Origin: Marinomonas lutimaris
GTDB lineage: Bacteria; Pseudomonadota; Gammaproteobacteria; Pseudomonadales; Marinomonadaceae
Length of the DNA: 64,000 nucleotides
Direction: 5' to 3'
NCBI RefSeq assembly: GCF_019426345.1
Contig: NZ_JAHLLW010000012.1
Span: 1-64,000 of the forward strand
The position numbers were made by a program, and so were the translations under genes. Below the pieces are notes generated by a model that ran no database searches, was not told the origin of the DNA, and was given only the letters and a program-made list of their open reading frames with translations. This document shows positions 31,748-44,494 of this stretch, one piece after another (position 1 is the stretch's first letter; each line of letters opens with the position of its first letter).

Positions 31748-34443
31748 GCAGATAACTCCACCACTGAAGAAACAAAGCGTTTTAATTCAGGAAGACAAGA
31801 GCCGCAATTGGTGCCACATTTTAACTTGGCCCCCAATCCATCGACGGAACAAATACCAGTCGAAACCGCCTTTTCAATTTGCTTACTGCCTACTTGATAG
31901 CAAGAACAAACAATTTCTCCTTTCTCTTCAGCGTTGGCGGGACTGCCTACCAAAATAGCTAAACGGTCTACTAATGATAACGGCGTGTTGACTTCTAATT
32001 TAGAAATAAGCCAATCCGCCAAGATGGATTTAGGCTGCGAATGCATATAAATAAGCATGGTAATTTTTTGATCAACTAACTTGGCCAATCGAATTTGTTG
32101 CGTCGCGGGATTTGAATATTCTAGCCATTCAACATTTTCAGCTAAGTCTTTGTCCTGCTCTCTATCTATGGCTTTCAACGACGCTTGCGTTTGTCCGTTA
32201 GGCCAAACTACTTCGTAGTGATAACCTTGCTCAGAAGGTACTTGGCACCAATACAGACACTCTGATAAAACAAGCGGTACAGCTGAAATAATCAGGCCAT
32301 AGCAAATATCTCTAACAGCCTCGAGCTGAACTTGAGCATGTTTCGACTCTGGTTGCCCTGACAAAGGATCAACGACTTGGGGGATTAGGTTAGATACAAC
32401 GGACGCGTTAGCAAATTGTCGAGTCCAGTGAATAGGTGCAAATACATTGTCTGGCGCAACCGCTCGACTCACTTTAGCTTTTAGTAAAGCCTCTCCGTAC
32501 GATGAAGTAAGACGTACTAAGTCTTTATCTTTAATACCAAGACGTTTCGCATCCTTGGGATGAATTTCCACATAAGGTTGTGCGGTATGCTTAGCCAAAG
32601 ACGCTGCATCTCCGGTTCTTGTCATCGTGTGCCATTGATCGCGCACTCGTCCGGTATTTAAGGTAAAAGGCCATTCTTGTGAAGCTTGGTACTTCGGCAA
32701 ACTTGGTGAGATCGCCACAAATTTTGCTCGACCGTCTAGTGTGAAAAAATAACCGTCCTCAAACATCCGCTTGGTACCTTCTGGACGACCTTTCGGCACC
32801 GGCCACTGCACTGGCGTAAGAGCGTCATACTCTGACTGGGTTATTTGACTAAAATGACCAATATCGAAATCACGCTTGCCATTGTTTTCAAACGCCGACA
32901 AAGCCGCATGTTCAGCAAAAATCTCATGCACATTTTGATAAGAAAACGCCGATTGAAAGCCAAGGCGTTTTGCCACTTCGCAGATTGCCCACCAATCATG
33001 CTTGGCTTCACCTGGCGCAGGTAATAAACCTCGTTGGCGAGAAATACGTCGCTCTGAATTAGTCACCGTACCGTCTTTTTCACTCCAGCCCGTCGCAGGA
33101 AATAGAACATCAGCCATAGCGGTTGTATCAGTATGCGCTTTGCAATCACTGACAATCACCAGCTCGCATTTTTCCAGCGCGCGTCGAACCTGAGCAGTAT
33201 CTGGTAAGCTCACCATAGGATTAGTCGACATAATCCACACCACTTTGACCTTACCTTTTTCCATGGCCTGAAATAAGTCGACGGCTTTTAAACCGTCCTT
33301 TGTTGCCATATTCGGCGCTTGCCAAAAACGCTGTACCAAATCTTGTGCGCCCGGTGTGGCAAAATCCATATGAGCGGCTAATTGATTGGCCAAACCACCC
33401 ACTTCTCGCCCGCCCATAGCGTTTGGTTGACCCGTAATAGAAAAAGGTCCAGCACCTTCTTTGCCAATACGACCCGTCGCCAAATGACAATTAATGATCG
33501 CGTTGCATTTATCAACGCCAGAGGAAGACTGATTCACCCCCTGAGAATAAAAGGTAATTGTCTTTGCCGTGTCGCGCCACCAGCTGGCTAAACTTGCTAG
33601 ATCTTGCTCACCGATTCCGCAAAAATCCGCCGTCAAAGATAAACTCGGTGTCGACTCTTTCGCTTGCGATAAAGCAGCCTCAAATCCATTGGTGTGGTTC
33701 GCAATAAAGTCATCATTTAAAATGCCAGCTTGAACTGAATCAGTTAATAAAAAGGAAAAAATCGCGGCGTCGGATCCGGGCTTAATAGCCAGGTGTAGAT
33801 CCGCAATATCGCAAGTCGCTGTTTCTCTTGGGTCAATCACCACCACTTTCATGTTAGGACGTTGTTTTTTCGCTGCGGCAATGCGTTGATATAAAATGGG
33901 GTGTGTCCAGGCCGCGTTTGACCCAACCATAATCAATAAATCACAGAGCTCTAGATCTTCATAATTACAAGGCACAGAGTCTGAGCCAAAAGCACGCTTA
34001 TAACCGACAACAGCAGACGCCATGCACAGACGAGAATTGGTATCCACGTTGGCTGTGCCGATAAAACCTTTGGCCAGTTTATTTGCCACGTAATAATCTT
34101 CAGTGAGAATCTGACCAGATAGATAAAAAGCAAAAGCATCAGGGCCATGATCTTTTACGACTTGAGCAATTTTCGCGCTCACTGTTTTAATAGCCGATTC
34201 CCAAGCAACAGGATGACCATCAACTATAGGTGTTATTAAGCGATCATCCGATTGAATGGTTTGCGCAAGACTGCTACCTTTCACACATAAACGACCAAAA
34301 TTAGCCGGATGCTCCAAGTCACCAGACACAGGTGGAACGGCTTCACTTGCCGAATGTGGAAGAGTCAAATTTACGCCACACCCAACACCGCAATATGGAC
34401 AGGTCGTTTTTACGCTGGTTGCTGTCTTCATTGTTGTCGTCAT
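31744..34443 (-). CDS. nasA: Assimilatory nitrate reductase, catalytic subunit
   Basis: An 899-residue cytoplasmic molybdoenzyme reducing nitrate to nitrite. The N-terminal [4Fe-4S] motif CPYCGVGCGV starts at C15, with its last ligand in FGRLCVKGS. The bis-MGD domains contain the expected SRLCMASAVVGYKRAFG and GPFSITGQPNAMGGREVGG segments. A C-terminal BFD-like [2Fe-2S] domain (CSCYQV...CGTNCGSC) marks the NasA/NarB type that takes electrons from a flavoprotein. ATG 34443 has AGGAAGG upstream; an upstream in-frame start at 34494 would lie inside the leader terminator. The start is preceded by a sigma-54 promoter and a strong terminator hairpin. Confidence 0.96.
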   Translation of the reverse strand: MTTTMKTATSVKTTCPYCGVGCGVNLTLPHSASEAVPPVSGDLEHPANFGRLCVKGSSLAQTIQSDDRLITPIVDGHPVAWESAIKTVSAKIAQVVKDHGPDAFAFYLSGQILTEDYYVANKLAKGFIGTANVDTNSRLCMASAVVGYKRAFGSDSVPCNYEDLELCDLLIMVGSNAAWTHPILYQRIAAAKKQRPNMKVVVIDPRETATCDIADLHLAIKPGSDAAIFSFLLTDSVQAGILNDDFIANHTNGFEAALSQAKESTPSLSLTADFCGIGEQDLASLASWWRDTAKTITFYSQGVNQSSSGVDKCNAIINCHLATGRIGKEGAGPFSITGQPNAMGGREVGGLANQLAAHMDFATPGAQDLVQRFWQAPNMATKDGLKAVDLFQAMEKGKVKVVWIMSTNPMVSLPDTAQVRRALEKCELVIVSDCKAHTDTTAMADVLFPATGWSEKDGTVTNSERRISRQRGLLPAPGEAKHDWWAICEVAKRLGFQSAFSYQNVHEIFAEHAALSAFENNGKRDFDIGHFSQITQSEYDALTPVQWPVPKGRPEGTKRMFEDGYFFTLDGRAKFVAISPSLPKYQASQEWPFTLNTGRVRDQWHTMTRTGDAASLAKHTAQPYVEIHPKDAKRLGIKDKDLVRLTSSYGEALLKAKVSRAVAPDNVFAPIHWTRQFANASVVSNLIPQVVDPLSGQPESKHAQVQLEAVRDICYGLIISAVPLVLSECLYWCQVPSEQGYHYEVVWPNGQTQASLKAIDREQDKDLAENVEWLEYSNPATQQIRLAKLVDQKITMLIYMHSQPKSILADWLISKLEVNTPLSLVDRLAILVGSPANAEEKGEIVCSCYQVGSKQIEKAVSTGICSVDGLGAKLKCGTNCGSCLPELKRFVSSVVELSA

Positions 34444-34470: not shown

Positions 34471-34518
34471 TAAAAACAAAAAAGGCCCAATCACTTTTCT
34501 AAAAAAGTGATTGGGCCT
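34471..34518 (-). terminator. Leader terminator (probable attenuator) of nasA
   Basis: A perfect 16-bp stem (34503-34518 with 34483-34498, outer bases AGGCCCAATC) on a 4-base loop is followed leftward by a T-rich tract (34472-34482). It ends 28 bases before the nasA ATG and lies downstream of a sigma-54 promoter, so nasA mRNA must pass through it. Just upstream, GGC-AACGAG-GCC could form a small hairpin that borrows the first bases of the terminator arm. Confidence 0.85.
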
Positions 34519-34594
34519 CGTTGCCTTTTGTAATATCTGTATGCTTTATGTGTAAGCCATCGTCGGTTTACGGTGCATCAGTAATATTAATTTA

Positions 34595-34610
34595 GCAATA
34601 AGCAAGCCAA
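34595..34610 (-). promoter_or_regulatory. Sigma-54 promoter for nasA
   Basis: On the minus strand TTGGCTTG-CTTA-TTGCT gives GG (34608-34607), exactly ten bases, then GC (34596-34595). This fits the -24/-12 consensus TTGGCACG-N4-TTGCW with two mismatches. Initiation near 34583 would give a leader of about 140 bases. The whole 34444-34744 gap otherwise holds only the attenuator. Confidence 0.7.
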
Positions 34611-37711: not shown

Positions 37712-38953
37712 TCAGGCGACTTGAGGACAGCAATACGCTTCGCCAAATACCAGTAAATCAAGCATGTCAGAGACATTGGTCTTATTTTGAATTAGCTGGA
37801 AATACCAGCTTCCATCGGCGACGTTGCCATAAAGAATTGCGCCAACCAGTAAGCCATCGTTGACCACCAGTTTGCGGTAATGATTTGCGCTAACATCTTT
37901 AAAAAAGATGCAGCTGTCTTCTTCTGAAGGTTGAATCTTACCAACTGAAAAAAGATTCACGCCTGACACTTTCAACTTAGTAGGAGTGGGTTCTATCACA
38001 AACGCAGCCTCTTCCCCGACCAATACCTTCATCAAGACGTTAATTTGTGTCCAAATAGGCGCCACTAAGCCAAAGGTTTGTCGATCAAATTCACAACATT
38101 CTCCCAATGCAAATACATCTTGGTGAGATGTCTTCATTTGGTCATCGACTAAAATAGCTCGACCGGTCTCTAAACCAGCCGCCCTGGCTAAAGTAATTTC
38201 AGGGTAAATTCCAGCCGCCATCACGACTAAACTCACCGTTAGCTGTTCACCATTTTGACAAACCACATGGGACACTCGACCGTCATCCGCTTGCTTAAAG
38301 GACTCTGGTGACTCGCCAAGGCGAAATTCAATGCCCATTTGCGTAAGTCTATTAAGCAAAAGCTCAGCTGATTCTTCGTCTAGCTGACGATTTAGCAACC
38401 ACTTTGAGCGATGAAACACCACCACTTTGTGACCACGTTTCACCAAGCCCACTGCGGCTTCTAGACCCAACAAGCCACCGCCAATCACACAAACTGATTG
38501 GCTACCTTTCAGCTGAGTCATGACATCTACATCATTCCAAGTACGAAAGCCCATTACATTAGGGGCCGACCCCCCTTTGATTGGTAACACACTTGCCCGA
38601 GAACCAGTCGCTAGCACTAATTGATCGTATTTAATGGTTTTTCCACTGGCTAATAAGAGCGTTTTATTTTTCGGGTCCAACTTAATAGCGGGATCATTGG
38701 ACACAATATCAACGCCATCTTCTTGCATCTTCTGCGCATCAACAAATGACATATCGGCGTCAGAAATATCCTTTGCCAATAAAGAGGACAACATGATGCG
38801 GTTATAGCCAACTCTGGATTCCTCTCCAACCAAAACTATTTGGTAATCATCGCCATGCGCTTTTTCGAAGTCGTGCGCAAGCTTGCTGCCAGCCATGCCA
38901 GCACCAACAATGACGAGACGGCGTTTCACCGGCTGAGAGATAAGACTAGGCAT
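37712..38953 (-). CDS. NAD(P)/FAD oxidoreductase, candidate electron donor to NasA
   Basis: A 413-residue flavoprotein that aligns with only the N-terminal FAD/NAD half of NirB. It has LVIVGAGMAGSKLAHDF, an ATGSR motif, VIGGGLLGLEAAVGLVKRG and VFALGECCEF, and ends (FGEAYCCPQVA) where NirB would begin its [2Fe-2S] domain. In Klebsiella-type systems a separate flavoprotein (NasC) delivers NADH electrons to NasA; this gene is the best local candidate. ATG 38953 overlaps the transporter ATPase stop by eight bases; ATG 38968 is the alternative. Confidence 0.82.
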   Translation of the reverse strand: MPSLISQPVKRRLVIVGAGMAGSKLAHDFEKAHGDDYQIVLVGEESRVGYNRIMLSSLLAKDISDADMSFVDAQKMQEDGVDIVSNDPAIKLDPKNKTLLLASGKTIKYDQLVLATGSRASVLPIKGGSAPNVMGFRTWNDVDVMTQLKGSQSVCVIGGGLLGLEAAVGLVKRGHKVVVFHRSKWLLNRQLDEESAELLLNRLTQMGIEFRLGESPESFKQADDGRVSHVVCQNGEQLTVSLVVMAAGIYPEITLARAAGLETGRAILVDDQMKTSHQDVFALGECCEFDRQTFGLVAPIWTQINVLMKVLVGEEAAFVIEPTPTKLKVSGVNLFSVGKIQPSEEDSCIFFKDVSANHYRKLVVNDGLLVGAILYGNVADGSWYFQLIQNKTNVSDMLDLLVFGEAYCCPQVA

Positions 38954-39794
38954 TCGCAACCTTGGCACTGGCCGCCACCGTTTTACTCTTAGCCGTTGCT
39001 TGAATCGGCTCTACTTTACGTTGTTTTTCATATAAGAAGGTCAACACTTGGGTCCGATAATCCACGTACCTTGGGTCATTCGCTAAGGCCAGACGTTCAC
39101 GAGGACGCTCAAGATCAACATGCAGAATTTCCCCTACGGTTGCTGCTGGGCCATTCGTCATCATCACAATACGATCCGACAACAACACAGCTTCGTCCAC
39201 ATCATGGGTGATCATAATCACTGTGTTGTTAAGGTCTTTTTGAATTTCCATCAACGAGTCTTGAAGATGCGCTCGAGTCAAAGCATCCAAGGCGCCGAAA
39301 GGTTCATCCATCAGTAACACACTAGGCTCCATCGCCAAGGCTCTGGCGATACCAACACGCTGTTTCATACCGCCAGAAATTTCATCTGGGCGCTTGTCCG
39401 CTGCATGGGTCATATGCACCAACTCTAGGTTGTGCATAATCCAATCATGCATTTCTTTCTTTGATTTGGTTTTACGAAAAACCTGCTTTACCGCCAATTC
39501 AACATTTTGGTAAGAGGTTAACCAAGGCAGTAAAGAATGATTTTGGAAAACCACCGCACGTTCTGGCCCAGGCCCTTTAACTTCACGGCCGTCCAATAAA
39601 ATTCCGCCTTCAGTCGCATCGTATAAACCGGCCACTATGTTGAGAACTGTCGATTTACCGCAGCCGGAATGGCCGATCAGAGAGACAAATTCGCCCTTCT
39701 CTATTTTTAAACTGACATTGTCCAGCGCTTTAAACGGCCCTTTTGGCGTTGGGAACTCAATCGATATGTGACTGATATCTAAATGTGTTGCCAT
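38946..39794 (-). CDS. nrtC: Nitrate ABC transporter, ATP-binding subunit
   Basis: A 282-residue ATPase of the NrtCD/SsuB-like group powering nitrate/nitrite import. Walker A is GHSGCGKST, the Q loop is in VFQNHSLLPW, the signature is SGGMKQR, Walker B is VLLMDEPFGALD, and the switch His is in MITHDVDEA. ATG 39794 (MATHLDIS) has GGAG seven bases upstream; a TTG at 39806 overlaps that site. It lies between the permease (39 bases) and the FAD oxidoreductase (overlap). It lacks the C-terminal NrtA-like domain found in cyanobacterial NrtC, so nasD is an equally valid name. Confidence 0.92.
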   Translation of the reverse strand: MATHLDISHISIEFPTPKGPFKALDNVSLKIEKGEFVSLIGHSGCGKSTVLNIVAGLYDATEGGILLDGREVKGPGPERAVVFQNHSLLPWLTSYQNVELAVKQVFRKTKSKKEMHDWIMHNLELVHMTHAADKRPDEISGGMKQRVGIARALAMEPSVLLMDEPFGALDALTRAHLQDSLMEIQKDLNNTVIMITHDVDEAVLLSDRIVMMTNGPAATVGEILHVDLERPRERLALANDPRYVDYRTQVLTFLYEKQRKVEPIQATAKSKTVAASAKVANA

Positions 39795-40831: not shown

Positions 40832-42241
40832 TTAGATCTGGTCGTCGCCTTTTAAACCGATTTTGAAGCTTTTCAAATAATCATTTGGGTGTTTGCCGTC
40901 ATAAGTCACACCATCGATAAAGTCACTTTGTGGTGGCTTAAAACCATCTTCTTTAGCGAAATCAGGGAATTCAGACGCCGTCATCACACCATCTTCTATC
41001 AAGGATTTTGCGGCTTGCGCATAAATATCAGGACGATAGACATCTTTGGCGGTCTTCATGAACCATTCGTCAGACTTAGGTTCGGCGATTTGCCCCCAAC
41101 GACGCATTTGCGTTAGGTACCAAATCGCATCGCTGTAATAGGGATAAGTTGCGTGGTGACGAAAGAAAACATTGAAATCGGGTATTTCACGCTTATCACC
41201 TTTTTCATACTCAAACGTCCCAGTCATGCTATTAGCGATCACATCGTAATCAGCACCGACATATTGACTACGTGCGAGTATTTTTACCGCTTCCGGACGA
41301 TTGGCGTTGTTGTTTTCATCTAACCATTTCGCAGCGCGAATCATGGCTTTTACAACACGAATATGAGTATTTGGGTATTTTTCCGCCCATTCACTGCTCA
41401 CACCGAAAACTTTCTCTGGGTTGTTTTTCCAGATTTCATAATCTGTAATGACTGGTACACCAATACCTTTAAAGACGGCTTGTTGGTTCCAAGGTTCGCC
41501 AACGCAATAACCAGAAATCGTGCCTGCTTCCATAGTGGCTGGCATTTGTGGTGGTGGCGTCACAGACAACAAAGCATCGGCGTTAATTTGACCACTGGTA
41601 TCGCCTCGTGCTGGCGCGTAATAACCCGGATGGATGCCACCTGCAGCAAGCCAATAACGCAGCTCGTAGTTATGTGTTGAAACAGGAAACACCATGCCCA
41701 TTTTGAATGGCTTGCCTTGTGCTTTATAGCCATCGATCACAGGTTTTAAAGCGCTGGCGCTAATAGGATGTACAGGCTTTCCATCTGGACCGTTAGGAAT
41801 GTTTTTCTTCATTTCATCCCAAACATCATTTGAAACGGTAATCCCGTTACCATTCAAATCCATACTAAAAGCCGTCACTATGTGTGCTTTTGTACCGTAT
41901 CCGATGGTTGCACCAAGTGGCTGACCCGCTAACATGTGAGCGCCGTCCAACTGACCGTCAATGACTCGATCTAGTAAAACTTTCCAGTTTGCTTGCGCTT
42001 CTAAAGTGACGTACAAACCTTCGTCTTCGAAATAGCCTTTCTCATAAGCAATAGCTAATGGCGCCATATCGGTCAATTTGATAAAGCCAAATTTAAGCTC
42101 TTCTTTTTCTGCATAACCTAGTTCTGCATGCGCCGCCCCAGATAAGAGTGCAGAGCCCAACAATATAGAAAGACTAGCTTTTTGAGTGGCATTGACGAAT
42201 ATCGGAAAAGGAATTACCGCTTTCAAAAATCTTAGGTTCAT
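40832..42241 (-). CDS. nrtA: Nitrate ABC transporter, substrate-binding protein
   Basis: A 469-residue exported nitrate/nitrite-binding protein of the NrtA/NasF/CmpA family. A signal peptide covers about residues 1-39 (cleavage near GAAHAE). The mature part has [45 protein letters not shown] and [18 protein letters not shown], all typical. GGAGCGAG precedes the ATG. It is the first gene of the long transport/nitrite-reduction transcript and follows a sigma-54 promoter, a two-hairpin motif and a terminator, so its expression is gated at initiation and in the leader. Confidence 0.95.
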
Positions 42242-42280
42242 AGTCTCGCTCCGCGTAAGGGATTAAAAAGTACAAAAACA

Positions 42281-42325
42281 AAAAAGGCGCATGCGAATCA
42301 CAAAATTTGTGTTCGCAGGCGCCTT
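42281..42325 (-). terminator. Leader terminator (attenuator) of nrtA
   Basis: Read leftward, AAAGGCGC-CTGCGAA pairs with TTCGCA-T-GCGCCTTT around CACAAATTTTGTG, with a bulge and a small internal loop, and runs into TTTTTTGTTTTTG. It ends 40 bases upstream of the nrtA ATG and downstream of its sigma-54 promoter. It therefore lies in the leader and must be relieved for expression. Confidence 0.85.
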
Positions 42326-42336
42326 TGCCATTCATA

Positions 42337-42399
42337 GAAAGCCCTACATTGGACTTTCAATAATGTGGGTGACAATTAACGATCGTTGCTAATTTCACC
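42337..42399 (-). promoter_or_regulatory. Two-hairpin ANTAR-type antitermination element
   Basis: Hairpin P1 (42399-42368): GGTGA/TCACC plus AATTAGC/GTTAATT closing a loop that starts AACGAT. Hairpin P2 (42358-42337): GAAAGTCC/GGGCTTTC closing the hexaloop AATGTA. Both loops have A at position 1 and G at position 4, the signature of RNA bound by ANTAR proteins. The terminator follows 11 bases after P2. NasT, encoded just upstream, is an ANTAR protein. Confidence 0.75.
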
Positions 42400-42452
42400 A
42401 AAATTTTTTTAAAACTCTATGTCTCTATAAATAATTCTATGATTTTTATAAA

Positions 42453-42468
42453 GCACGCAGCGTGCCAA
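42453..42468 (-). promoter_or_regulatory. Sigma-54 promoter for nrtA
   Basis: On the minus strand TTGGCACG-CTGC-GTGCT has GG (42466-42465), ten bases, then GC (42454-42453), one mismatch from the -24/-12 consensus TTGGCACG-N4-TTGCW. Initiation near 42441 gives a leader of about 200 bases that includes the two hairpins and terminator. A dyad at 42505-42527 (AGTGT...ACACT around TTATCTAGATAA) lies upstream. Confidence 0.8.
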
Positions 42469-42599
42469 TATAACTAACTCAATGATTTATAAGTTTTTTA
42501 GGGTAGTGTGCTTATCTAGATAACACTATTCAACACGTAATATGAACCTATTCGCCCAACAATCAAGCAGAGCGCACTAAAAGAAGACACGCAAACACA

Positions 42600-43802
42600 T
42601 TATTTAGCCGATGTATCAAAACCGGCTAAAATCCCATCTGGATGCAAACGTATCTTTCCTGCCGCAACGGCATCCAACCAAGTTTCCTCCTGCTCGACAG
42701 ACAAATACCAATCCCTACTTTCACCTTCTTCAGGAAAACCTAAAGCTTTGTTATAAAGATCCTGACGATAAACTTGCTCTGCCACTTTACTCAGTGACTG
42801 AATCTCCCCCAGCTGCTGCCAACGATGCATTTGCGCCATAATCCATAATGCGTAACTAGGTAAAGGTTTATTAATATCGCTACCAGAAAAACGCTGATAC
42901 GCCTTCATTGGCCAATCAAATTGACCTTTTGGTTTAATGGCACTGAAACCATAAACTAGCTGCTCTAGTGTGCAATTCAGATAATCTGGATGACTTAATA
43001 TACTCAGCAACTCAGTTTGGTTGCTGGGCTCATCTACCCACAAACAGGCTTTTTCTAAGGCGCGAATAATTGACAAATACACGGCTTGGTTCCGTTCGGC
43101 CCAAACAGAGTTCACGCCAAATACTTTTTCTGGTGTACTCCCCCAAATTTCATAACCAGTCACCAACATATGCCCAATACCTTGCTCAACAGCAAGACTG
43201 TTCCATGGCTCACCGACGCAATAACCATCGATATCACCCTGCCTTAAGCTATCGAGCATCTTCACAGGTGGAACCACGACTATTTGCATATCTTTATCGG
43301 AATCAATTCCGGCGCGGCTTAGCCAATCTCTTAGCTGATAGTTATGGGATGAATAAGGATAAACCATTGCAAAACGTAATGGTGCCGCGTCAGCTCCTCG
43401 GGCATCGAGCAATTTTTTCAACGCCACACCTGTGCGAATATCAACCGAAGACTCAGCATAATGCTGCAACTCTTCATACAGGGCATTACCAATCGTGATG
43501 CCGTTGCCGTTATGGCTTACGGTAAAACTCGTTTGCATGGCGGTCTTAATGGTACCAACCCCCAAACTGGCCGCAATCGGCATAGACGCCAACATATGAG
43601 CGCCATCAAGCAGATTAAAGGCCACTTTATCGCGGATACTTGCCCAAGATGCTTCTTTAGATAGCACCACATCCACGCCTTCTTGAATGAAAAAGCCTTT
43701 TTCTTGGGCAATTACAAAGGGGGCACAATCGATCAATGGAATAAAACCAATACGAACAGGTTCACTATTTTGAATAATATTATTTGGCTGCATCAGGTTC
43801 AT
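42600..43802 (-). CDS. nasS: Cytoplasmic nitrate sensor NasS
   Basis: A 400-residue homologue of the nitrate-binding protein without a signal peptide: it starts directly into [49 protein letters not shown] and [18 protein letters not shown] repeat the NrtA ligand-site segments. In known systems NasS binds NasT and releases it when nitrate or nitrite is present. The start overlaps the nasT stop by four bases with GGGAGG upstream, so the pair is made together. A 358-base gap (42242-42599) with the nrtA control region follows. Confidence 0.93.
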   Translation of the reverse strand: MNLMQPNNIIQNSEPVRIGFIPLIDCAPFVIAQEKGFFIQEGVDVVLSKEASWASIRDKVAFNLLDGAHMLASMPIAASLGVGTIKTAMQTSFTVSHNGNGITIGNALYEELQHYAESSVDIRTGVALKKLLDARGADAAPLRFAMVYPYSSHNYQLRDWLSRAGIDSDKDMQIVVVPPVKMLDSLRQGDIDGYCVGEPWNSLAVEQGIGHMLVTGYEIWGSTPEKVFGVNSVWAERNQAVYLSIIRALEKACLWVDEPSNQTELLSILSHPDYLNCTLEQLVYGFSAIKPKGQFDWPMKAYQRFSGSDINKPLPSYALWIMAQMHRWQQLGEIQSLSKVAEQVYRQDLYNKALGFPEEGESRDWYLSVEQEETWLDAVAAGKIRLHPDGILAGFDTSAK

Positions 43803-44404
43803 TTTGAACCTCCCATCAGTTCCATCACAGAGATGATATTACGAGCTACGTCTGTCATTCGCTGACTACGATCCATCGCGAGTTTCCTCAGCGCTTTATA
43901 AGCAGCAGGCTCATCACATTGTTGATGTTTCATTATCAGCCCTTTTGCTTTATCTATCAGCTTACGGTCTTCAAGCTGACTTTTTACGGATTCTAATTCC
44001 GACCTTAGCGCCTGAAACTCTCGAAATCTTGCAATGGCAACTTGCAGCAACGCTTTAACGCTACCACTGTTAACACCATCAACCACATAGGCGCTGACAC
44101 CCGCTCGAATAGCCGCTTCCACGTGTCTGGAATCATCTTCTTCGGCAAACATCACAATAGGACGAGGATTATCTTTGGTAAGTCGAGACATGTTTTCCAA
44201 CATATCTCGATCTGGGGATTCGATATCAATAATGACCATATCTGGTTGAAATTCGTTAACTGCTTCCGTTAGATTCTTGGCATTTTCCAGTCGTCTAATT
44301 ACGCGATAACCACTATCAATCATGGCTTGCTCTACAATGGCTGCTCGTGCGGGCTCATTGTCAACAAGCATCACGGTTAATTCTTTTTCTGGGCGAGCAG
44401 GCAT
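43799..44404 (-). CDS. nasT: ANTAR-domain antiterminator NasT
   Basis: A 201-residue regulator with an N-terminal receiver (VMLVDNEPARAAIVEQ; acidic D60 in VIIDIESPDRD) and a C-terminal ANTAR RNA-binding domain from about residue 138. The ANTAR part shows LEDRKLIDKAKGLIMKHQQCDEPAAYKALRKLAMDRSQRMTDVARNII with the conserved AKG, Ala-Tyr and Leu-Arg positions. Known NasT proteins bind nitrate-leader RNA and prevent termination once freed from NasS. The nrtA leader carries the expected two-hairpin target. It is translationally coupled to nasS. Confidence 0.94.
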   Translation of the reverse strand: MPARPEKELTVMLVDNEPARAAIVEQAMIDSGYRVIRRLENAKNLTEAVNEFQPDMVIIDIESPDRDMLENMSRLTKDNPRPIVMFAEEDDSRHVEAAIRAGVSAYVVDGVNSGSVKALLQVAIARFREFQALRSELESVKSQLEDRKLIDKAKGLIMKHQQCDEPAAYKALRKLAMDRSQRMTDVARNIISVMELMGGSK

Positions 44405-44494
44405 GGTGCATTCTCTTAAAAACGTGAAGTCATTCTCAGATAAAATGCAAGATATGCGCCATTTCGATACACTATTTTTCTAGAGGATTAAACG

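Follow-up and report, generated by a model that had tools for sequence, protein, structure and literature searches.

A terminator-embedded ANTAR hairpin in the nrtA leader of Marinomonas lutimaris, a probable NasT-controlled antitermination switch

The nasTS–nrtA locus and the nrtA promoter

The window, by which we mean the whole 64,000-nucleotide stretch of Marinomonas lutimaris DNA that was analysed, carries nasT, nasS and nrtA in this order on its minus strand. The Pfam matches of the first two genes and their adjacency confirm the preliminary description, which had placed NasT and NasS just upstream of the nrtA leader. nrtA is followed on the same strand by an nrtB-like gene (169 bits, under its cut-off of 209), nrtC, a FAD/NAD reductase gene, nirB and then nasA; the matches to ntrCD (353 bits) and nirB (1285 bits) behind nrtA both exceed their own cut-offs. 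The FAD/NAD reductase between nrtC and nirB (418 amino acids, 37712–38968, minus strand) resembles the N-terminal part of NirB and may supply the assimilatory reductase with electrons. The features of the region are the following.

44446–44461, minus strand: sigma54-like site of nasTS, TGGCGCATATCTTGCA, two mismatches
43799–44404, minus strand: nasT, receiver-like and ANTAR protein of 201 amino acids (Pfam ANTAR 70.9 bits, Response_reg 50.1 bits)
42600–43802, minus strand: nasS, NMT1_2-family nitrate-binding-like sensor (Pfam NMT1_2 251 bits), overlapping nasT by 4 bases
42573–42578, minus strand: AGTGCG, candidate NtrC half-site ahead of the nrtA promoter
42475–42487, minus strand: AATCATTGAGTTA, IHF-like site between enhancer and promoter
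42452–42467, minus strand: sigma54 −24/−12 site of nrtA, TGGCACGCTGCGTGCT, one mismatch to TGGCACG-N4-TTGCW
42368–42399, minus strand: distal ANTAR-like hairpin (P1 of the preliminary description), 12 bp with a bulge, 7-nt loop AACGATC at 42381–42387
42337–42358, minus strand: proximal ANTAR hairpin (P2 of the preliminary description, P1 in the EutV sense), 8 bp, loop AATGTA at 42345–42350
42318–42329, minus strand: terminator-embedded ANTAR hairpin GGC[AAAGGC]GCC (P2 in the EutV sense), within the 5' arm of the terminator
42280–42326, minus strand: intrinsic terminator of the nrtA leader with T-tract, −25.8 kcal/mol alone, ending 38 nt before nrtA
40832–42241, minus strand: nrtA, first gene behind the switch (Pfam NMT1_2)

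The nrtA leader spans 42280–42467 of the minus strand. Direct reading gives a −24/−12 site, two hairpins with A1/G4 loops (A at loop position 1 and G at position 4) and a terminator, an arrangement that is kept across Marinomonas with exceptions. For the 205-nt leader the predicted folding energy is −61.8 kcal/mol (z = −5.9), a value that none of 200 shuffles reaches. Rfam gives no match in the window at the gathering score, and the eight matches obtained on relaxing the search to E values of up to 5 are all sub-threshold and unrelated. A plasmid search with the nrtA leader as query returned no match.

The sigma54-like site upstream of nrtA is, as the preliminary description had it, one mismatch from the consensus. 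Taken alone, a single site of this kind is weak evidence, because matches with at most two mismatches occur in the window at the chance rate (10 found, 10.3 expected). All 39 Marinomonas nrtA leaders examined contain TGGC-N8-TGC, counted as the best match per leader and without a shuffle control. None of them has T at position 12 of the site, so the family as a whole shares the mismatch. From the position of the site, transcription of nrtA is predicted to start near 42441. The corresponding sequence upstream of nasT, TGGCGC-N5-TTGC, is found in 25 of 30 fetched loci.

In 37 of 39 leaders the 100 nt between 50 and 150 nt upstream of the −24 box contain RGTGCR, which we take to be the NtrC consensus, whereas mononucleotide shuffles give 2.4 leaders on average and 7 at most; the leaders are related sequences and the count involves no curated site model. 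AGTGCG at 42573–42578 would presumably be such a site, and NtrC exceeds its curated cut-off in the M. lutimaris genome. Of the 39 leaders, 26 have WATCA-N5/6-TTR, presumably the IHF consensus, shortly ahead of the promoter, and none of these is among the six NasR-type leaders (again without a shuffle control); AATCATTGAGTTA is a candidate IHF site on this basis. A sigma54-like start of nrtA is supported, with NtrC present in the genome, and NtrC and IHF may act at these sites.

The leader hairpins and the terminator

Both upstream hairpins, with the loops AACGAT(C) and AATGTA that had been described, are confirmed by direct reading, by folding and by covariation of their stems. For the covariation analysis we aligned 29 NasT-type leaders from the 39 that contain the anchor, leaving out six NasR-type leaders together with L040, L049, L050 and L051; class counts and pair counts were used in place of a covariance model. 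Changes on both sides are seen at 8 of the 12 pairs of the distal stem and at 7 of the 8 pairs of the proximal stem. For either structure the covariation score was reached by none of 500 shuffles and all slid versions score lower; the shuffles ignore relatedness, and related genomes weight all genus counts given here. On weaker measures, the proximal-plus-embedded structure is matched by 30 of 500 shuffles for the number of both-side pairs and by 89 of 500 for pair types. In 12 of 28 rows one pair of the proximal stem (columns 56/73) is not formed, and nine of 28 rows lack the pair that closes the distal loop in its 7-nt register, chiefly rows that are able to close a hexaloop instead.

A1 and G4 are conserved in related genomes. 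Among the 29 distal loops 26 have both, the exceptions being L017, L027 and L038 (L039 was scored on its own hairpin); the proximal loops have both in 25 of 29, and three of the four others combine G1 with G4. These counts were taken from the aligned letters at the loop positions, because an energy-based choice often prefers a tetraloop in which loop positions 1 and 6 are paired. The 7-nt distal loop, described earlier as a slight departure from the ideal hexaloop, is real: at this position some Marinomonas leaders can form a six-base loop and others one of seven bases, and the 26 leaders just mentioned retain A1 and G4. A pairing of the linker ACATT with AATGT of the proximal loop was also considered and was dropped, being broken by eye in L019–L021 and L027.

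The terminator with its T-tract lies shortly before nrtA, as expected from the preliminary description, and ends 38 nt ahead of the start codon. The same description had assigned the role of antiterminator to the two upstream hairpins, and this is not supported. Neither overlaps the terminator and all three elements coexist in the minimum-energy fold, so neither hairpin can exclude the terminator. According to the folding model, the decisive element would instead be the mini-hairpin GGC[AAAGGC]GCC at 42318–42329, overlooked at first reading, which would exclude the terminator from within its 5' arm. A second hairpin embedded in the terminator is also what the published ANTAR model contains (PMC3369936; PMC8934654, in the part available). 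The linkers between the three hairpins are 9 and 7 nt, the latter separating the proximal hairpin from the embedded P2.

On paper, the embedded hairpin and the terminator are mutually exclusive. With the former imposed, the leader folds at −50.5 instead of −61.8 kcal/mol, a cost of 11.3 kcal/mol; the stem that remains has −11.1 kcal/mol, compared with −25.8 kcal/mol for the intact terminator, and is set apart from the T-tract. The mini-hairpin alone has −2.8 kcal/mol. These calculated energies would fit termination by default, with a protein needed to hold P2.

The embedded sequence GGCAAAGGYGCC is present in 39 of 41 nrtA loci. In the 40th (G016), CGAGC[AACGAC]GCTCG stands by eye in the same relation to another terminator, and in the 41st (G041) the sequence ends 227 bases beyond the NasS match. 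As the 39 leaders were collected using GGCAAAGGYGCC itself, its conservation within them is by construction. Independent of the collection are that just two of the 41 loci are without it and that its GGC stays constant although it lies outside the terminator stem and has no partner there. Across the 29 aligned leaders this GGC is invariant, and so is the T before it, which differs in L051. The 3-bp embedded stem shows no variation in the alignment either and therefore gains no covariation support there; its support comes from the differing stems in other loci. GGCAAAGGYGCC alone has six matches in the M. lutimaris genome; a terminator follows the window copy only, the other five being by eye without a nearby T-tract. 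As a different third ANTAR loop we considered a hairpin with an AATGG loop just ahead of the terminator (TGAATGGCA), which was rejected as its flank varies by eye (TTTGGC, TAAAGGC and others) while GGCAAAGGYGCC is constant.

With their covarying stems and A1/G4 loops, the distal and proximal hairpins could still be an antiterminator pair by themselves, with GGCAAAGGCGCC being ordinary terminator sequence. Several observations make this improbable: their coexistence with the terminator in the fold, the invariance of a GGC that the terminator stem does not use, and the dominance of embedded A1/G4 loops in other Gammaproteobacteria (see below). Moreover, the divergent NasT leaders L040, L049 and L050, with 70–73 nt from promoter to GGC, have no distal hairpin yet keep the proximal and embedded ones. 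Any part that the distal hairpin may play in M. lutimaris is conjectural, in contrast to its structure.

Terminators between operons are common, and the present one could be a plain terminator of nasTS next to a separate promoter, without any control by NasT. It is located, however, downstream of a conserved promoter and ahead of nrtA, the order of promoter and then embedded loop is kept in 39 of 39 leaders, and the ANTAR protein and the nrtA operon occur in the same genomes. We consider a plain terminator highly unlikely. Much the same holds for an action of NasT on translation or RNA stability instead of termination. PMC3369931 (in the part available) puts forward an ANTAR target that overlaps a ribosome-binding site elsewhere. 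The loop found here, however, belongs to a terminator whose end is 38 nt ahead of the start codon, and this reading is very unlikely for nrtA. An ANTAR-type antitermination switch that uses the embedded P2 and is controlled by NasT is very probably the function of the nrtA leader.

Embedded loops in other leaders and the exchange of regulators

We scanned 61 loci for terminator-embedded loops: the window and 60 ANTAR loci from 60 of 97 ANTAR-bearing gammaproteobacterial genomes, which were chosen among the stronger matches before their leaders were viewed, weaker matches not being sampled. In these loci 92 hexaloops are embedded at terminator starts, of which 52 are A1/G4, including two in the window, followed by G1/G4 with nine; an earlier, stricter scan gave 50 of 74. 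The binomial tail at p = 1/16 is 4e-38, a value that is naive about composition and descent. A1/G4 is found in one of 36 embedded 5-nt loops and four of 44 embedded 7-nt loops. Embedded A1/G4 sites are present in 43 of the 61 loci and absent from the other 18, and at least two matches (L095, plus strand, and L110) resemble chance. The three pairs beside the 52 loops are GAC/GTC in 32 cases, GGC/GCC in 12, AGC/GCT in five and others in three.

Upstream loops accompany most of these sites. At least one A1/G4 hexaloop hairpin is found within 110 nt upstream of 42 of the 52 sites and none at ten, while at least two are found at 11 sites, some of them weak or overlapping. With the window excluded, A1/G4 accounts for 28 of 41 upstream hexaloops at −36 to −17, 15 of 25 at −66 to −46 and eight of 26 at −110 to −70. 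The counts in the same three bins are 0/14, 2/13 and 3/13 for 5-nt loops and 1/13, 1/14 and 2/30 for 7-nt loops. Two upstream loops near −57 and −21, spaced much as in the nrtA leader, occur together at six of the 52 sites (L068, L072, L077, L113 twice and L115), so a three-loop leader is not peculiar to Marinomonas. The heptaloop as distal loop has no parallel among the scanned gammaproteobacterial loci. 7-nt A1/G4 loops upstream of embedded sites are not enriched in other Gammaproteobacteria, as the two nearer bins show, which on sequence grounds speaks against a general role of the heptaloop; with one in 14 in the distance bin concerned, the departure from the hexaloop may matter.

When used as a search pattern, the embedded loop plus terminator matches the M. 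lutimaris genome exactly twice, at the nrtA and nasA leaders. It is found in 35 of 48 Marinomonas genomes and the reversed control gives 0 matches in the 48. Patterns with GAC/GTC and AGC/GCT stems have no match in the M. lutimaris genome, and in the genus the GAC/GTC pattern is noisy, with 12 matches against five for the reversed control.

The second match is a further ANTAR leader, absent from the preliminary description, upstream of nasA (34478–34609, minus strand). It comprises the following features.

34594–34609, minus strand: sigma54-like site of nasA, TGGCTTGCTTATTGCT, two mismatches
34552–34571, minus strand: upstream hairpin of the nasA leader, loop GACGAT (G1, G4)
34514–34525, minus strand: terminator-embedded ANTAR hairpin GGC[AACGAG]GCC of the nasA leader
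34478–34518, minus strand: terminator of the nasA leader

The nasA match is present in 43 genomes, and 30 Marinomonas loci were fetched. All 30 of these leaders carry an embedded A1/G4 loop that fits GGC[AACGRN]GCC, and 29 carry TGGC-N8-TGC, the 30th sequence ending early. The upstream loop has G1/G4 in 26 of the 30 leaders and A1/G4 in four, and the top of the G1 loop is about 31 nt from the embedded hairpin. The GTG listed as the start of nasA (34494) is part of the leader terminator; a likelier and better-fitting start is the ATG at 34443, which follows GAGGAAGG.

Seven of the 48 Marinomonas genomes, the M. lutimaris genome not among them, contain an operon with a methyl-accepting chemotaxis protein and a NIT-domain protein (L160–L166; the protein families were checked in one locus, L156). 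In all seven copies a sigma54-like site is present and a terminator contains GGC[AAAGGC]GCC; the upstream hairpin is without a clear A1/G4 loop. The operon possibly serves nitrate taxis under ANTAR antitermination.

Antitermination of the ANTAR type with NasT as the partner, as put forward in the preliminary description, is supported by NasT being the only ANTAR match in the M. lutimaris genome. Its best PDB match is EutV (entries 6wsh/6ww6, E = 4.5e-25). When mapped by eye, Tyr164, Arg168, Met172 and Arg177 of EutV correspond to Tyr, Arg, Met and Arg in NasT, while Asn173 and Arg175 are replaced by Asp and Ser. These EutV residues are named in connection with RNA in the available part of PMC8934654.

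Among the 48 Marinomonas genomes, NasS/NrtA-type and ANTAR matches occur together in 41 and neither occurs in the other seven. NasS with an adjacent ANTAR match is found in 34 of the 48. The genomes G009, G011, G014, G016, G019, G021 and G023 have an NrtA-type match only, and their ANTAR gene is not adjacent to it. An NIT-ANTAR (NasR-like) protein is present in all three that were scanned of these seven NasS-less genomes. The same seven (loci L042–L048 and L149–L155) keep the same kind of nrtA leader. NasS-NasT and NasR are apparently exchanged as regulators of one operon within the genus. Two further observations concern ANTAR genes in Marinomonas. One genome contains a second, weaker ANTAR match (41.7 bits, G045:C12:323400-323558). 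Moreover, GAC[AATGGC]GTC lies in a terminator-like stretch no more than a few hundred bases from a NasR-like gene at G014:C1:95390, G021:C12:275103 and G023:C28:122569, where it may mark a further ANTAR leader, the pattern having also given five control matches elsewhere.

A proposed switch and its relation to known systems

In the mechanism that we propose, the sigma54 promoter would start transcription, probably under the control of NtrC in times of nitrogen shortage. By default the RNA would fold the strong terminator and polymerase would halt ahead of nrtA. On binding nitrate or nitrite NasS would release NasT, as is known in Paracoccus, the sensing of nitrate by NasS being assumed here by homology. 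Released NasT would then bind the A1/G4 loops as they emerge, first the distal, then the proximal and finally the embedded GGC[AAAGGC]GCC. With the embedded hairpin held closed, the terminator would lose its lower stem and the remainder would be split from the T-tract, allowing polymerase to read into nrtABC and beyond. The same kind of switch would also operate ahead of nasA.

The preliminary description had read this logic as an AND gate of nitrogen shortage and nitrate, which is plausible. Such a gate is known in kind, as control by NtrC plus NasR or NasT has been described in Klebsiella oxytoca and Paracoccus denitrificans (PMC5424462, in the part available). Predicted sigma54 promoters of ANTAR genes, mainly from beta- and gammaproteobacteria, are likewise reported in the available part of PMC12316311. 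A more speculative extension, which we rate as rather unlikely, is a relay that passes NasT from the distal hairpin, where it loads, to the proximal one and then to the embedded loop. The number of loops would then set the sensitivity to NasT, and the nrtA leader with three loops and the nasA leader with its G1 upstream loop would be tuned to different nitrate thresholds.

A close known arrangement is that of P. denitrificans, where NasTS are also encoded directly upstream, a hairpin leader lies between nasS and the structural operon, and Ntr control applies (available parts of PMC3795266 and PMC5424462). There, NasS and NasT dissociate on nitrate and NasT binds the nasA leader (PMC3795266, same part). 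In Paracoccus nasA is first behind the leader, whereas in Marinomonas it is the ABC nitrate transporter gene nrtA. The third loop, the embedded loop and the second leader seen in Marinomonas are not described for Paracoccus in the available parts of these two papers. The leader also resembles that of K. oxytoca nasF under NasR in having a P1 with A1/G4, a P2 that overlaps the proximal stem of the terminator and an Ntr-dependent start. K. oxytoca, in contrast, uses a one-component NIT-ANTAR sensor and two hairpins where Marinomonas has NasS-NasT and three (PMC7496416, in the part available; PMC3369936).

With the dual hexaloop motif of Enterococcus faecalis EutV it shares the A1/G4 hexaloops, the second of which is embedded in the terminator, and linkers within the 5–12 nt seen in the E. 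faecalis eut leaders (PMC3369931 and PMC8934654, in the parts available). To this Marinomonas adds an upstream hairpin, with a 7-nt loop in this species, and its NasT would by homology be freed by a binding protein, whereas EutV is activated by a kinase (same sources, same parts). The published dual motif has exactly two hairpins, and two are what the available parts of PMC8934654 and PMC3369931 describe for ANTAR systems; the nrtA leader has three ANTAR-like loops, with the P1–P2 pair still present.

Literature searches for three or additional ANTAR hairpins, for Marinomonas or nrtA with NasT and for a nirBD leader with NasT found, among the papers listed, none on this leader or on a three-loop form, and an earlier description is possible. 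A literal search of papers for the embedded P2 sequence returned only papers unrelated by title. The kind of ANTAR leader described here is already known and the third loop is the variant.

The analysis turns an impression from the sequence into a testable switch with named bases, and it moves the decisive element to a site missed at first reading. An A1/G4 hexaloop in the 5' arm of a terminator is a simple signature for ANTAR leaders in many Gammaproteobacteria, one that applies in a window for which Rfam gives no match. The apparent exchange of NasS-NasT and NasR together with the three-loop form offers a comparison that could test how ANTAR dimers use several hairpins in turn.
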